Origin: Roseococcus pinisoli
Lineage (GTDB): Bacteria > Pseudomonadota > Alphaproteobacteria > Acetobacterales > Acetobacteraceae
Assembly: GCF_018413645.1 (NCBI RefSeq)
Contig: NZ_JAHCDA010000006.1
Span: 62,001 to 126,000, forward strand
Length of the DNA: 64,000 nucleotides
Reading direction: 5' to 3'
A program made the position numbers and the translations under genes. This document shows, piece by piece, positions 4,062-64,000 of this stretch (positions are counted from its first letter, which is position 1; each line of letters opens with the position of its first letter). The notes under the pieces are model-generated. The model saw nothing but the letters and a program-made list of their open reading frames with translations, ran no database searches and was not told where the DNA came from.

Positions 4062-6250
4062 TGCGTCGCCTTCTGCTGGCCAGTGCCGCCTTCCTTCCCC
4101 TCGCCGCCGCGCAGGCGCAGGAGGTCCGCCTCCCCCTCACGCTGGACGAGATGGTGGTGACCGCCACGGGCCGTCCCGAGCCGCGCTCCAGCCTCGCCGG
4201 CACCGTCCAGGTCATCGACCAGGAGACGATCCGCCGCAGCACCGCGCGCAACATGACGGACCTGCTGGCCGAGAACGCGGTCGGCTTCTTCAGTGAATGG
4301 ACGCCGGGCCAGACCAGCATCAACATCCGCGGCGGCTCCTCCGACGGCCAGGGGCGCGACTTCCGCTCGCAGGTGCTGGTGCTGGTGAACGGGCGCCGGG
4401 CTGGCACCGCCAACCTCTCCAAGCTCAGCCCTGCCGAGGTGGAGCGCATCGAGATCATCCGCGGGCCGGCCAGCGTGGTCTATGGCAGCCAGGCGATGGG
4501 CGGCGTCATCAACCTCATCATGCGCGACGGCCGCTCCTCCCCGGGCGGCCTCGCCGAAACCAGCGTCGGCTCCTGGGGCCTCATCGAAGGGCGGCTGCGC
4601 TACGGCATGAGCTTCCGCGACGCGCCCGTCGCGCCCGAGGGCTCGGCCGCCTACAACGTCCGCGCCGGCGACATGTATGTCGGCCTCTCCGGCGGCCGCC
4701 GCGACAGCTATCGCGCCGGCGGCGACGGGCCGACCATCCAGGGCACCGAGTGGAACCGGGCCGGCGGCGCGGCGGCGCTCGGCGTCGAGACCAATATCGG
4801 CCGCATCGGCATCAGCGCGCGGACCGACGGGACCTATAATACGGGCTTCACCGGCTCGGCCTGGAACACCACCAACCACGAGGACCGCACGAACCATTCG
4901 GCGGACATCACCCTCGAGGGCGCGACGGCGGATTCCCGCTTCCGCTGGAACCTCCAGGGCTATGCGGTGCGGGACATCGACAACCTGCGCTGGCGCTCGC
5001 CCATCCAGCGCAGCGCGGCGGGCCTGCCCGTGCCCGGCACCGACCGCGACGACAACCGCCGCGTGCTCGATATCCTCGGCATGCGCCTGCAGCCCTCGAT
5101 GCGGCTCTGGCAGGGCGCCGAGATCCTGGTGGGCCTCGACCTCGAGCGCTCGGTGCTGCGCTCCACGCGCAACCGCATCGGCCTGCCCGGCGGGCCGACG
5201 GGGCAGGTGGCGCCGCTGGACAACAACCAGACGGACATGAATGCCGGCCTCTACGCCGAGCTCTCGCAGCAGCTCTTCGAAGATCGCGTGACCCTGCGCG
5301 CCGGCGTCCGGCAGACCTGGGGCAACACGGCCTTCGACCCCACGCCCAACCTGCCGCTGCAGCGCTCCGGCGCCCGGGACTACGACGCGACCACCTGGTC
5401 GGTCGGCGCCTCCTACCGGCCGATCACCTCGGTCGCGCTGCGCGCCAATGCCTCGACGGGCTTCCGCGCGCCGACGGCGACGGAGCTCGCCGCCGACTTC
5501 ACCGCGCTCGGCGGCGGCCGCACCTTCGGCAACGCCAACCTGAAGCCCGAGACCAACCTGCAATACGAGGTCGGCGCGGCCTATTTCCGCTCGGGCTTCC
5601 GGGCCGATCTCGCGCTCTTCCAGAACACCATCTCGGACCGCATCATCACCCGGGTGCGCCCGCGCGACAGCACCACCAGCGACTACACGAACAACCCGGG
5701 CGACATCGTGGTCCGCGGGCTGGAGGTGCAGCTCGAAGCGGATCTGGCCCGGCACCTGGGCATCGAGAGCTTCCGCTGGCGGGCGAATGCCAATGCCTCC
5801 TGGAACTTCGACATGCGCGACGACGGCGCGTCGCGGACGGCCAATACCCGCAACGTGGAGCGCATGTACCGCTACCAGGCCGGGATCAGCACCACCGTCG
5901 GACAGGATCGCTGGGACGTGACCCTGCAGGGCATCCTGCGCGGCCCCGTCTACTACAACACGGAGGAGAACCTGCTGATCCCGCAGGCCGAGCCCTTCCG
6001 CGACTACGTCCACCGCAAGGGCGCCTTCTGGGTGCTGAACCTTCGTGGCAGCTTCCAGCCCCTGCCGGAGCGGGCGCCGAACGTCCGCGTCTTCGGGGCG
6101 ATCAACAATCTGCTCAACGAGAATTACCACCCGCTCTTCATCGCCACGGCGTCCAATCCCTTCCTCGGGGATTCGCGCTTCGCCAATGGCGGCCGCGGCA
6201 ATTCGGCGCCGGGGCGGGAGTTCATCGGCGGCGTGCGGTTCACCTTCTGA
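4061..6250 (+). CDS. btuB: TonB-dependent outer membrane receptor, probably for cobalamin (BtuB-like)
   Basis: A 729-residue outer membrane transporter. It has a signal peptide ending near AAAQAQ, a TonB-box-like DEMVVTATG segment just after it, and a plug domain with VERIEIIRGPASVVYGSQAMGG near residues 127-147. A long beta-barrel region ends in a terminal phenylalanine (VRFTF), as expected for BAM-assembled barrels. The cobalamin riboswitch upstream and the BtuF/C/D-like genes downstream point to B12 or another corrinoid as substrate; the sequence alone would not exclude a metal chelate. The start overlaps the methyltransferase stop. Confidence 0.88.
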   Translation: MRRLLLASAAFLPLAAAQAQEVRLPLTLDEMVVTATGRPEPRSSLAGTVQVIDQETIRRSTARNMTDLLAENAVGFFSEWTPGQTSINIRGGSSDGQGRDFRSQVLVLVNGRRAGTANLSKLSPAEVERIEIIRGPASVVYGSQAMGGVINLIMRDGRSSPGGLAETSVGSWGLIEGRLRYGMSFRDAPVAPEGSAAYNVRAGDMYVGLSGGRRDSYRAGGDGPTIQGTEWNRAGGAAALGVETNIGRIGISARTDGTYNTGFTGSAWNTTNHEDRTNHSADITLEGATADSRFRWNLQGYAVRDIDNLRWRSPIQRSAAGLPVPGTDRDDNRRVLDILGMRLQPSMRLWQGAEILVGLDLERSVLRSTRNRIGLPGGPTGQVAPLDNNQTDMNAGLYAELSQQLFEDRVTLRAGVRQTWGNTAFDPTPNLPLQRSGARDYDATTWSVGASYRPITSVALRANASTGFRAPTATELAADFTALGGGRTFGNANLKPETNLQYEVGAAYFRSGFRADLALFQNTISDRIITRVRPRDSTTSDYTNNPGDIVVRGLEVQLEADLARHLGIESFRWRANANASWNFDMRDDGASRTANTRNVERMYRYQAGISTTVGQDRWDVTLQGILRGPVYYNTEENLLIPQAEPFRDYVHRKGAFWVLNLRGSFQPLPERAPNVRVFGAINNLLNENYHPLFIATASNPFLGDSRFANGGRGNSAPGREFIGGVRFTF

Positions 6251-37459: not shown

Positions 37460-38167
37460 TCAGCCGACGAGGCGGCCGCGGCGAGGGGGCTCGGGCGCCT
37501 TGGTGAGCTGCGGCGCCACGATCTTCGCGTAGACGCGAAGGTCGCGCTCGATCGCCGCGCGGGCACGGGCCGGATCGTGGGCGTCGAGCGCGTTCAGCAG
37601 CTCGTCGTGTGGATGGCCCTCGAGCCAGGCGGGGCGGGGCGATGAGAGCACGAGGTTGATGGTGGGGCCGGCCTGGGTCCAGAGATGCTCGACGACGCGC
37701 TGCAGCACCGGCATCCGGGCGATGGCGATGACGCCGAAATGGAAGCGCTCGTTCTCCTCGAGCCCGACCGCTACGTCATTGTCCTGCCGTGCCTGCAGCA
37801 GCCGGGAATGGATGTCGCGCAACTGCCGGACGTCGGCCGGCGTGGCGAGCGTCGCGGCCCGCGCGGCGGCGAGGCCTTCCAGCTCGACGCGCAGGTCCAT
37901 GATCTCCAGGTAGCGCTCCGGCTGGAGCCGCGGCACCCAGGCGATGCCCCGGGCATCCAGCTCCAGCGCGCCCTCCGACACCAGGCGCAGCAGGGCCTCG
38001 CGCACCGGTGTGGGGCTGACGCCGAGCTCGCTCGCCAGTTGCCGGTGAACGAGCTTCTGGCCGGGCACGAGCCTGCCCCCCACCAGGGCGCCCCTCAGGC
38101 GTCCATAGACCTTCTCGGTCAGAGTCTCTTCCCGGTCGACGGGCGTAAAGGTCGTTTCGGCTGTCAC
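37460..38167 (-). CDS. GntR-family regulator with FCD effector domain
   Basis: A 235-residue repressor or activator. The winged helix covers LTEKVYGRLRGALVGGRLVPG and HRQLASELGVSPTPVREALLRL; the remainder is an all-helical FCD ligand domain with metal-binding His/Asp positions. GTG at 38167 is the chosen start; an ATG near 38230 would extend it. It is divergent from the TPP-enzyme cluster at 38240-42921 and is the likely regulator of that cluster; FCD members usually sense a carboxylate of the pathway they control. Confidence 0.85.
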   Translation of the reverse strand: MTAETTFTPVDREETLTEKVYGRLRGALVGGRLVPGQKLVHRQLASELGVSPTPVREALLRLVSEGALELDARGIAWVPRLQPERYLEIMDLRVELEGLAAARAATLATPADVRQLRDIHSRLLQARQDNDVAVGLEENERFHFGVIAIARMPVLQRVVEHLWTQAGPTINLVLSSPRPAWLEGHPHDELLNALDAHDPARARAAIERDLRVYAKIVAPQLTKAPEPPRRGRLVG

Positions 38168-60197: not shown

Positions 60198-61196
<999 letters not shown>

Positions 61197-61215
61197 TCAT
61201 GCCTTCAAACAGGAA

Positions 61216-61237
61216 CGGGGGCCGCAGAGGGCCCCCG
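61216..61237 (-). terminator. Hairpin between rpmA and obgE
   Basis: CGGGGGCC / GGCCCCCG stem (eight pairs, six-base loop) between the rpmA stop and obgE start, read on the minus strand. It has no T-run, so partial termination or mRNA processing that lowers obgE relative to the ribosomal genes is likelier than a full stop. Confidence 0.55.
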
Positions 61238-61264
61238 CTGATCACGCCATGACGTAGGCGCAGC

Positions 61265-61534
61265 TTACTCGGCGGCCAGCTTGATCGGCTCGACGGAGAC
61301 GTGGACGCGATCTTCCGCCTTGCGCTCGAACTTCACGTGGCCCTCGACGAGGGAGAAGATCGTGTGGTCGCGGCCCAGGCCGACATTGCGGCCCGGCTTC
61401 ATCTTCGTGCCGCGCTGCTTGACGAGGATGTTGCCGGCCAGCACGTGCTCGCCGCCGAACTTCTTCACGCCAAGCCGCTGGCCGGGAGAGTCACGCCCGT
61501 TGCGAGAGGAGCCGCCTGCCTTTTTATGTGCCAT
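61265..61534 (-). CDS. rpmA: 50S ribosomal protein L27
   Basis: An 89-residue ribosomal protein. [29 protein letters not shown] and [12 protein letters not shown] are the L27 signatures; the N-terminal tail reaches the peptidyl transferase centre. Starts 12 bases after rplU. Confidence 0.98.
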
Positions 61535-61546
61535 CTCTGTCGCTCC

Positions 61547-61861
61547 TTACGCTGCGATGGTGGCGATGCGCAGAATCGTCTGCATCTGCCGGTGACCGCG
61601 CTTGCGGCGGCTGTTCTTGCGGCGGCGCTTCTTGAGGATCAGCACCTTGTCGCCACGATTCTGGTCGATCACGGTCGCGGTGACCGTGGCACCCGGCACG
61701 GTGGGCGCGCCGAGCTGCAGGCCAGCCTCGCCGCCCAGAGCCAGCACCTCATGGAAGGTGATGGTGGAGCCGGGCTCGGCCTCCAACTTTTCGACGGCGA
61801 GCACCGCATTCGGCGTCACCCGGTACTGTTTTCCGCCGGTGCGGATCACTGCGAAGGTCAT
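61547..61861 (-). CDS. rplU: 50S ribosomal protein L21
   Basis: A 104-residue ribosomal protein: [13 protein letters not shown] at the N-terminus and [16 protein letters not shown] near the C-terminus are diagnostic of L21. ATG at 61861 gives the standard length; seven upstream codons are open but not needed. First gene of rplU-rpmA-obgE. The 233 bases before it, up to the tRNA, presumably hold the promoter. Confidence 0.98.
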
Positions 61862-62094
61862 CACACGCGTCCTTAGGGCCACTCGCGAGAGCGAACTGCC
61901 CGTGAAACTGAAAGATTTCGGTCGCCTGCCGGGAGAAGGGCACCCCCATGAACGACCTCAGGCGACACGAAAGCGCCGCCCGGGAAGGGCCGTTTAGGGG
62001 GCAGGGGGGCGGAGAGTCAAGTCATCGGCTGGTCATTTTGCCGGAAGACCCCGTTGCGCGCTCGCTCAGGCCGCCCTATACGGCGCGCCGACCA

Positions 62095-62184
62095 GGACAG
62101 GTGGCGGAGTGGTCGATCGCACCGGTCTCGAAAACCGGAGTAGGTGCAAGCCTACCGTGGGTTCGAATCCCACCCTGTCCGCCA
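62095..62184 (+). tRNA. tRNA-Ser (CGA)
   Basis: Complete 90-base tRNA with encoded CCA: acceptor GGACAGG / CCTGTCC, anticodon loop CTCGAAA (anticodon CGA), long class II variable arm (GTAGGTGCAAGCCTAC) and T-loop GGTTCGAATCC. It marks the boundary between conserved ribosomal genes and accessory DNA, and its last 16 bases are repeated at 63011-63026. Confidence 0.97.
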
Positions 62185-62325
62185 TTTCCAATACGAGCGG
62201 CACGCTCCACCAGACCGAGCGCCGCGCCGAGTGGCAGGTTTCCTGGGGTTTTTGCAGCACACCTATTGACTGGCCCGTCGTGGAGCCGGTTGGAAATCGC
62301 TCTCCGGAGGCCAATTCTCTCCGGA
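62169..62325 (+). repeat. Direct repeat copy A (tRNA-Ser 3' end plus about 140 bp)
   Basis: Begins with CCCACCCTGTCCGCCA, the 3' end of tRNA-Ser, and runs to a shared segment ending CTCTCCGGA. By eye about four of five positions match copy B at 63011-63166, with runs such as AGTGGCAGGTTTCCTGG and CTCCGGAGGCCAATTCTC identical. The repeat of a tRNA 3' end is what tRNA-targeting integrases leave behind (att sites); the longer homology suggests related left ends of two islands or a segmental duplication. 62326-62602 after it has no gene I can support. Confidence 0.8.
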
Positions 62326-62602
62326 TCCTGGCACGATCGACGATGTGCAGGTTCTCAGCGCCGCGGCCGGCCGCAATAAGCCCGTCGTGGCGGGTGAAGC
62401 GGTGATTCGAGGATCACACCCTACGGCGTGGCGGCCCTGCGTCATGCCCGGCGGCCCTCGGAGGGATGAAAGCCGGGTTCGAGACGCTTTTTGCTCGGCG
62501 TCCGCTTTATGAATGGCACAAACACGTGGTGCAGCACGCGATGCGTGTCGCGCCGCGCTGGCTTGTTGGCCCGAATCCGCATGGAGCTTGGAGATAACTC
62601 AG

Positions 62603-62953
62603 ATGCCCCGCATCCCAAGTGACGACCTCACCGACGTCATCGCCTCCAGGGTCATGGAGGTCGATGGCAAGCCGCAGTTCCATATCAGGATTGGCCGTCC
62701 GACGCTTGCACCGGAGGGCAGATCCTGGTTTTGCGCCTATGAAATTGCGGGCCCTCTGACAAACCGAAAGGGGCGATTTGGGGGTGAGGATGCGATGCAG
62801 GCGCTGGTGAACGCGCTCTACTGCATTTCCGTTGATGTGGAGGTTTGCGCGGAGAACGTGCAGGGAAGGTTGGCCTGGTTGGGCGACACAGGGGATTTCG
62901 GGTTGCCCTCACCCCCGACACGCTCCGCACGTGGGGTCAGCGATCTGAAGTGA
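62603..62953 (+). CDS. DUF6968-like hypothetical protein
   Basis: A 116-residue soluble protein. The layout IRIGRP, then SWFCAYEIAGP, FGGEDAMQALVNALYCI, and a late WLGDTGDFGLP matches the pattern I know from DUF6968 proteins, which have no assigned function and are often found in accessory DNA. GGAGATAACTCAG before the ATG at 62603 acts as ribosome site. It lies between the two repeat copies and is less GC-rich than the chromosome around it, consistent with transfer. Confidence 0.65.
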   Translation: MPRIPSDDLTDVIASRVMEVDGKPQFHIRIGRPTLAPEGRSWFCAYEIAGPLTNRKGRFGGEDAMQALVNALYCISVDVEVCAENVQGRLAWLGDTGDFGLPSPPTRSARGVSDLK

Positions 62954-63010
62954 TTAATGGACGTCTGTTTGAGCGGCCCAATAGCTGCACAGAGACCGTT
63001 GGCATCCGGC

Positions 63011-63166
63011 CCCACCCTGTCCGCCAGTTCCCATACGAGCGTGCTCTCCGCCAGACCGAGCGCCGCGCTGAGTGGCAGGTTTCCTGGCGTTTTCGGGGCA
63101 TACCTGTTGACTGGCTCGGCGCGGAGAAGGCCGAAATTCGCTCTCCGGAGGCCAATTCTCTCCGGA
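63011..63166 (+). repeat. Direct repeat copy B (second tRNA-Ser 3' end)
   Basis: CCCACCCTGTCCGCCA at 63011-63026 is identical to bases 62169-62184 of tRNA-Ser, but no tRNA body precedes it here. The following 140 bases resemble those after the real tRNA. Together with copy A it brackets 842 bases. 63167-63300 after it has no gene I can support. Confidence 0.8.
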
Positions 63167-63310
63167 CCTCCTGACTTGGGCGGTTTGGTGTGGAACTCAA
63201 AAATCTAGGTAAAAGGCCGGTTTCCGGGCGGTCGGCGCCTGCTCTGGTTCGAACCCCACTTGCCTGAAATCCGTACTTCGAGAGCGAACACTTTGGTGCG
63301 GGATCACCAG

Positions 63311-63678
63311 CATCCGGCATTCGATCGCGGTCAACATGGGTGCGCCCAGGCGAAGGATGGGTCACTGCTCCGCATGGTCCCGTTCGTGGAGCGGAACTAC
63401 AACATGGTCGAGCTTGGGCCGCGAGGGACCGGCAAGAGCCATCTCTTCCAGCAGGTTTCGCCCTACGCGCATCTCGTCTCGGGCGAGAAGGCGATCGTGG
63501 CCAGGATGTTCGTGAACATGGCGAACGGCCAGCGCGGCCTCGTCTGCCAGTACGACGTCGTTTGCTTCGATGAGGTCTCGGGCGTGTCCTTCGATCAGAA
63601 GGACGGCGTGAACATAATGAAGGAGTACATGGAGAGCGGTGAGTTCTCCCGTGGGCGCGAGAGCATCCGCGCGGAGGG
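63311..63678 (+). pseudogene. brxL: brxL fragment (BREX system AAA+/Lon-like protein)
   Basis: An internal piece of about 120 codons of BrxL, a core component of BREX phage-defence systems. From 63374 it reads MVPFVERNYNMVELGPRG, then the Walker A GPRGTGKS at 63416-63439. QYDVVCFDEVSG (Walker B) and FDQKDGVNIMKEYMESGEFS follow, up to ESIRAEG near 63678, where homology stops abruptly at a transposase remnant. The N-terminal half and the C-terminal Lon-like part are missing. The ATPase motifs themselves are intact, so the break is recent or the piece was preserved by chance; the protein cannot be functional. Confidence 0.88.
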
Positions 63679-63861
63679 CACTCGCTGGCCGAGGCCCGGG
63701 TTGTCATCGAAAGCTAGCGTCAGCACTACAACACGGCGCGGCCGCACTCGTCGCTCGGGTACAAGCCGCCGGCTCCGCACGCCCTGGTATGGCCGCCGAC
63801 ACAGGCCCAATCTGCCACACCAGTCACACCGGACGTGGCAGACATGCCAACGATGCATTAA
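63679..63861 (+). pseudogene. IS3-family transposase (OrfB) C-terminal remnant with in-frame stop
   Basis: Translating from 63679 gives HSLAEARVVIES, a TAG stop at 63715-63717, then RQHYNTARPHSSLGYKPP, the typical C-terminal end of IS3-group DDE transposases (normally ESWRxxYN, so the stop replaces Trp), ending with TAA at 63859-63861. All upstream parts, including the DDE catalytic core, are absent. It is joined directly to the brxL fragment in a different frame. Confidence 0.88.
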
Positions 63862-63884
63862 GTTTCACCCCGGACCACCCAATG

Positions 63885-63955
63885 GGCGCAGACCAGGTGC
63901 CCTGCGCAAGCCTGAAGACCAAAATCAAAGCGGTCACCGGGCACCGGTCTGCGCC
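63885..63955. repeat. Inverted repeat near the insertion element end
   Basis: GGCGCAGACCAGGTGCCC (63885-63902) is inverted at 63939-63955 as GGGCACC-GGTCTGCGCC, one base short, with a 36-base spacer. The left arm includes the TGGGCGCAGACCA sequence that plausibly ends the IS3 element. It may be element ends meeting head to head, or a long terminator-like hairpin. The remaining bases to 64000 show no gene. Confidence 0.5.
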
Positions 63956-64000
63956 AAACTTCGCACGCGGCCTACCCCGCGCCAAAATCAGGGTAGTTCG

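Follow-up and report, generated by a model that had tools for sequence, protein, structure and literature searches.

Integrative islands borne on tRNA genes comprise the tRNA gene, a repeat of that gene's 3' end on the opposite side and an integrase gene of their own, and a complete IS3 element comprises orfA/orfB and terminal inverted repeats. In the available portion of PMC10164562, BrxL is mapped into an N-terminal domain (residues 1-146), an ATPase domain (170-469) with E280 as an active-site residue, and a C-terminal domain (498-679), the last being Lon-like or a nuclease according to the published domain descriptions (available portions of PMC10164562 and PMC12839542). In E. coli, 41 defence hotspots were recorded, 18 of them within tRNA loci, with BREX only at hotspots 1 and 37, according to the available portion of PMC10121019. 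The loci analysed here likewise have defence systems in islands at tRNA genes, and differ from the E. coli hotspots, as far as the same portion of PMC10121019 goes, in that the genes concerned are those of tRNA-Ser, with several anticodons, that the family is another one and that a block of ~280 bp is common to the loci.

We analysed a stretch of 64,000 nucleotides of the Roseococcus pinisoli genome (the window; G000:C9:62001-126000; genome of 4.79 Mb in 12 contigs), at the right end of which a fragment of brxL lies beside such a block. The best explanation, and in our judgement a very probable one, is a dead type-1-like brxL piece, fused by deletion or illegitimate recombination to a decayed IS3-type end, in the remains of a tRNA-Ser(CGA) island beside the block. 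A decayed brxL at a tRNA-linked hotspot is unsurprising; the block, which may be an attachment arm of islands that carry defence systems, is of more interest than the relic, which is ordinary.

The tRNA-Ser(CGA) island at the window end

Two ribosomal protein genes, presumably rplU and rpmA, are followed by tRNA-Ser(CGA), a partial block copy, an ORF with a DUF6968 domain, a tRNA-end-like sequence, a full block copy, 40 bp, the brxL piece and an IS3 tail. The features are as follows.

62095..62184, + strand: tRNA-Ser (anticodon CGA), the island anchor (ARAGORN; Rfam tRNA, 62.5 bits)
62169..62331, + strand: partial block copy (~160 bp), joined to the tRNA 3' end (85% identical to 63011-63174)
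62513..62953, + strand: 146-aa ORF with DUF6968 domain (Pfam PF22302, E 1.8e-19)
63000..63027, + strand: detached tRNA-Ser 3'-end-like sequence, a probable attachment-site remnant (CACCCTGTCCGCCA common to the tRNA 3' end)
63028..63301, + strand: full block copy, inner end CCGTACTTCGAGAGCGAAC-n6-GTGCG (33-copy alignment; inner-end motif)
63302..63341, no strand: stretch of ~40 bp without an assigned origin (only 14-15-base matches in the compared loci)
63342..63679, + strand: brxL relic, an internal AAA+ ATPase-domain piece with GPRGTGKS and VVCFDE (Pfam, PADLOC, PDB, blastn)
63680..63861, + strand: 3'-terminal part of an IS3-type orfB, interrupted in frame by TAG at 63715-63717 (translation, Pfam rve_3)
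63862..63891, + strand: what remains of the right end of that insertion sequence, its limit uncertain within 63891-63907 (plasmid alignments)

Repeats of the tRNA 3' end, as in tRNA-borne islands, are present at 63000-63027 and at C9:131132-131158 (L003:9133-9159), the latter a 27-bp copy with 93% identity. To the right of the relic, the contig carries genes for a Methyltransf_24 protein, an S1/P1 nuclease and a glycerophosphotransferase-like protein, then debris and a second DUF6968 ORF with the tRNA-3'-end-like copy. A stretch comprising part of the DUF6968 ORF and the tRNA-end-like copy recurs with 79% identity at G000:C9:130714-131158 (DUF6968 match of the second copy, E 1.6e-12), as if the same right-end module closed two tandem islands. 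Both DUF6968 ORFs (62513-62953 and L003:8715-9159, the latter being C9:130714-131158) stand directly before a tRNA-Ser 3'-end-like copy. No ORF of at least 100 aa in the window or L003 resembled two integrases taken from related loci (phmmer, E 1e-3), and tblastn with eight proteins of the region gave no matches in related loci.

The brxL relic and its joint with an IS3-type end

The identification of the segment as a brxL fragment in the preliminary description was borne out by matches to Pfam BrxL_ATPase (PF13337; positions 49-159 of 313, 168.7 bits, E 1.8e-49) and to the PADLOC BrxL model PDLC02506 (positions 205-315 of 680, E 5.4e-61), and by alignment of residues 1-103 of the 105-aa piece with residues 211-313 of BrxL in PDB 8EMC (E 2.4e-36). 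Non-BREX AAA+ proteins, a comparison which that description had itself proposed, gave far weaker matches in Pfam (IstB, E 0.0017; ORC-CDC6-like, E 0.16), PADLOC (DrmD, E 2.2e-4) and the PDB search (IS5376 ATPase, E 0.45), and we reject such a protein as the identity of the piece. Judged by sequence, the assignment to BrxL is far beyond chance. The piece contains an AAA+ domain of the PF13337 family with both motifs, GPRGTGKS and VVCFDE, which we take to be Walker A and Walker B, and it retains the Glu aligned with BrxL E280 in PDB 8EMC.

In blastn comparisons with 80 brxL loci, the left edge of DNA similarity falls within 63340-63371 and the right edge, for 75 of the loci, within 63678-63680; the five other right edges are 63633, 63654, 63666, 63673 and 63682. 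The right junction given in the preliminary description thus stands, and its left start at 63311 lies about 30 bp too far left. The piece, ~338 bp long, represents about one sixth of the protein; brxL similarity is absent from both flanks and both ends of BrxL are missing, only positions 205-315 of 680 being covered, with neither the N-terminal domain nor the C-terminal Lon-like or nuclease domain. By the domain map in the available portion of PMC10164562, about a third of the ATPase domain remains. Compared with BrxL of type-1 BREX (PDB 8EMC/8EMH), the relic shares the aligned ATPase residues 211-313, has substitutions at invariant glycines and lacks both the N- and the C-terminal domain as well as most of the ATPase domain; because these are missing, no working BrxL can come from the piece.

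The invariance of the substituted glycines was assessed in 73 of the 80 relatives, those whose matches were full and ungapped (the other seven were omitted). Among the 79 invariant columns, two, each invariant in 73/73 relatives, carry Gly-to-Glu substitutions in the piece, and every other row of the comparison has at most one private change; at a further column the piece has Ile where 66 relatives have Thr and 7 have Ser. The low dN against the nearest relative (0.033, versus a dS of 0.74) counts against our explanation in so far as any decay must be recent; most of the divergence arose under selection, and the decay is probably recent. The piece is a relic, ordinary debris.

Its top-scoring DNA relative is brxL of Falsiroseomonas algicola (87% over 315 bp, blastn). 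Within the genus, the closest relative is BrxL of G014, which has 93% amino-acid identity to the piece and is encoded by a 683-codon open frame within a full BREX on contig C65 (L119; PADLOC: BrxA, BrxB, BrxC, PglX, PglZ and BrxL); there the gene set is complete and the contig holds no block copy, whereas the relic lies beside the block. BrxL occurs in 5 of the 150 family genomes and a match to the piece in 2 of 21 genus genomes, both counts including the genome analysed here. With this genome's own BREX proteins as queries, pglZ or pglX was present in 51 of 80 related loci and matches to brxA, brxB and brxC in 0 of 80, a null count that may reflect divergence and the 8-kb flanks.

From 63680, the sequence switches to the C-terminal end of an IS3 OrfB, as had been described: positions 63682-63861 translate as SLAEARVVIES*RQHYN..., closing with a stop at 63861, and the segment past the internal stop matches Pfam rve_3 (E 8.7e-7). 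The internal stop goes unremarked in the preliminary description. The tail has the C-terminal QHYN-RPHSSLGY stretch of IS3-family orfB (Pfam rve_3) and differs in being reduced to roughly the final 60 codons, which include an internal stop; the orfB end and the right-end region are all that was found of an IS3 element. The match to an IS3 transposase region on Lichenihabitans plasmid NZ_CP036516.1 stops at 63891, and other plasmid matches extend up to 63907, depending on the record. Matches to the tail were found in 33 plasmid records, with 68-71% identity among the eight matches listed and 80-90% identity in two of the 33; no plasmid place covering 80% of 62184-64000 was present among the matches listed (20 of 50 records). 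The tail is not one of many copies, 63660-64000 matching nowhere else in the genome at E 0.001.

The joint at 63679/63680 lies within orfB, away from the insertion-sequence end, and therefore clean transposition did not make it. We infer a later deletion or illegitimate recombination, which would have joined the middle of brxL to the decayed IS3-type end; a part of insertion elements in breaking brxL is likely. None of the other 20 genomes of the genus yielded this joint; a single 53-bp match across it (77%), in G016, lies at a locus without brxL similarity (tblastn, best E 1.5).

BREX elsewhere in the genome and the history of the piece

An intact BREX is present at G000:C5:517183-531989, with brxA, brxB, brxC, pglX in two ORFs, pglZ, brxL and a weak BrxE match. 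Between the end of its brxL and a block copy attached to tRNA-Ser(TGA) lie 84 bp. In that copy, 244 of 291 bp match (86% over 244 bp), and the last ~48 bp, with the conserved inner end, are missing. The two adjacent PglX ORFs, of 644 and 900 aa (L004:10747-15380), have different best PADLOC PglX models. Both this BREX and the relic adjoin a tRNA-Ser gene and the same block; unlike the relic, the C5 gene set is complete, and its BrxL shares only 50% identity with the piece. The C5 brxL is oriented towards the block and the piece away from it, and therefore the relic layout is not simply that of a trimmed C5-type island.

Further BREX sequence was sought by tblastn at E 1e-3 in the window and in the 8,324 bases that follow it on the contig (72,324 bases in all). 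The queries were 638 ORF proteins (at least 150 aa) from 82 loci: the BREX locus of this genome plus 81 others with brxL, two of which are one and the same contig. The brxL piece drew 83 matches, and two fell elsewhere, at 5264-5737 (E 3.6e-4) and 37715-38125 (E 7.6e-9), which we discount as BREX, their query ORFs being a TonB receptor and a GntR/FCD regulator. Among the genome's own seven BREX proteins, BrxL alone matched the same DNA, at the piece (others, E at least 0.39). With both query sets finding the brxL piece only, we reject a hidden set of other BREX pieces; brxA, brxB, brxC, pglX and pglZ are absent from the window and from the 8.3 kb to the contig end, where the preliminary description had guessed that more brx genes might lie. 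No other BREX remnant was found, and therefore a complete BREX at the relic site is undemonstrated: from the earlier proposal of an island BREX that had been cut down, the brxL relic with IS3 debris in a tRNA-Ser-linked island is supported, and the cutting down of a BREX in place stays a proposal.

In the explanation that we prefer, the island at tRNA-Ser(CGA) probably lost cargo and the brxL piece would be among the remains; we infer that a functional brxL once arrived here with the island and was then cut down. A rival account, less probable and still deserving appreciable weight, disputes this history only, and its odds overlap those of our preferred explanation: the piece would have arrived already broken, as a passenger of an IS3-type element or another island, at a locus that never had BREX. 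It accords with a single 338-bp piece without further BREX sequence in 72,324 bases, with the direct fusion to IS3 debris and with an orientation opposite to that of brxL in the intact island. It accords less well with the standing of the locus among places with defence genes beside the same block, with the intact BREX at the genome's other block site and with the failure to find the fused joint in the other 20 genus genomes.

Derivation from the intact brxL on C5 is suggested by the shared genome and the like neighbouring block, and is refuted by the identities, only 50% at the amino-acid level to C5 BrxL against 87% at the DNA level to Falsiroseomonas algicola brxL, leaving it next to no credence. 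That the joint is an assembly artefact is very improbable, as its position is internal to a 134-kb contig, with 8.6 kb left to the contig end, in a stretch (63660-64000) with no second genome match at E 0.001 to cause a mis-join, and the nonsense and Gly-to-Glu changes fit real decay. We find it equally hard to credit a domesticated mini-ATPase gene that still functions: its frame, open for 302 codons with the ATPase core motifs intact, begins inside the block and crosses the IS3 DNA in a frame other than that of orfB, and two invariant glycines have been lost. On our preferred explanation, the relic shows defence-gene turnover, with brxL of one lineage broken at one tRNA-Ser gene and a divergent, complete BREX at another in the same genome.

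The conserved block at tRNA-Ser genes

The block, about 275-280 bp long, starts at the 3' end of a tRNA-Ser gene or at a detached tRNA-end-like sequence, and most copies end sharply at CCGTACTTCGAGAGCGAAC-n6-GTACG; the linked tRNA-Ser genes have the anticodons CGA, TGA, GGA and, once, GCT. Mean column identity is 83% in 33 aligned copies, and the block is probably non-coding. Matches at E <= 0.001, some partial, occur in 30 of the 150 family genomes, with up to seven in each, and copies were located in L005, L120, L127-L131, L133-L136 and L178-L202, some of them away from any tRNA gene, behind tRNA-end-like sequence. We found no description of such a block in this family in the open-access papers searched.

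Several identities for the block were rejected. Within 61000-64000, only the tRNA passed the Rfam gathering score, and sub-threshold matches (sX4, plastid 3'UTR) overlap the tRNA, that to the small RNA sX4 (62079-62239; 27 bits versus a gathering score of 70) spanning the tRNA-Ser gene and the block start. A conserved fold is disfavoured by predicted pairs changed on both sides in only 3 of 27 cases and by a covariation term of -0.32. Nor is the block BREX-specific: no copy was present in the compared stretches of the 80 brxL loci, of five brxL loci from four further genomes of the family or of the G014 contig.

Genes beside the block were scanned as the largest ORF starting within 6 kb inside a copy (PADLOC, E 1e-20). 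The 41 copies listed comprise 21 linked to a tRNA gene and 20 unlinked, one of the latter appearing twice because L185 and L186 overlap; three of the 21 were left out, namely the window's partial copy, L136 (6 bp inside) and L195 (464 bp). A PADLOC match was found inside 12 of the 18 scanned tRNA-linked copies, 11 of 17 in other loci plus BrxL of C5, counts that may include falsely called ORFs and that draw on a PADLOC set in which generic methyltransferases figure. The matching types are type I and type III restriction enzymes, DUF1156 and Hma-like methyltransferases, DrmMI-like, PLD/helicase, PDC-S14 and BrxL. The six copies without a match are those of L130, which has a PglZ-domain gene nearby, L199, which has a ResIII-like gene, and L186, L192, L196 and L200. 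The PglZ-domain gene (L130:1813-2730) adjoins the block copy in G012, a genome without a match to the brxL piece.

Outer-side genes gave a PADLOC match at 0 of 10 copies (an outer ORF is present at 15 tRNA-linked copies, of which these 10 were scanned), and tRNA-Ser(CGA) loci without a block at 0 of 5 (L121 and a block-free tRNA-Ser(TGA) in L129 were left out). Fisher tests returned 8.8e-4 for the comparison with the outer side and 0.014 for that with the loci without a block; these comparisons include several copies per genome and set an outer 4 kb against an inner 6 kb with longer ORFs. Block copies not linked to a tRNA gene had a match in 2 of 7 (the other 13 rows were left out).

These observations are consistent with an inferred island mechanism at tRNA-Ser genes and the block, in which the tRNA-Ser genes would act as island attachment sites and the block would probably be the island end that stays beside the tRNA. 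A more specific reading, tentative and on balance rather unlikely, is that the block serves as the dedicated landing site or attachment arm of an undescribed tRNA-Ser island family that mostly carries defence and plugs in at several anticodons, with cargo exchanged at the inner-end inverted repeat CCGTAC...GTACGG (variable core of ~6 bases) and the brxL relic as left-over cargo. If the block were a general boundary of defence islands in the family, it would provide a DNA handle for finding defence systems, unknown ones included.

In G004, an integrase with an arm-binding domain (L128:8921-10255) lies 122 bp from a block copy, on its outer side, an arrangement that fits an attachment region. 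Arm sites made of block motifs on the integrase side as well were rejected, 0 of 13 motifs being found in the 450 bp beside this integrase. The G012 arrangement, in which the integrase (L205:7315-9081) adjoins tRNA-Ser(GGA) and the block is at the far side in opposite orientation, fits the attachment-region reading less well. The integrases at L128:8921-10255 (G004) and L205:7315-9081 (G012) are both phage-type, with an arm DNA-binding domain, at tRNA-Ser-linked islands.
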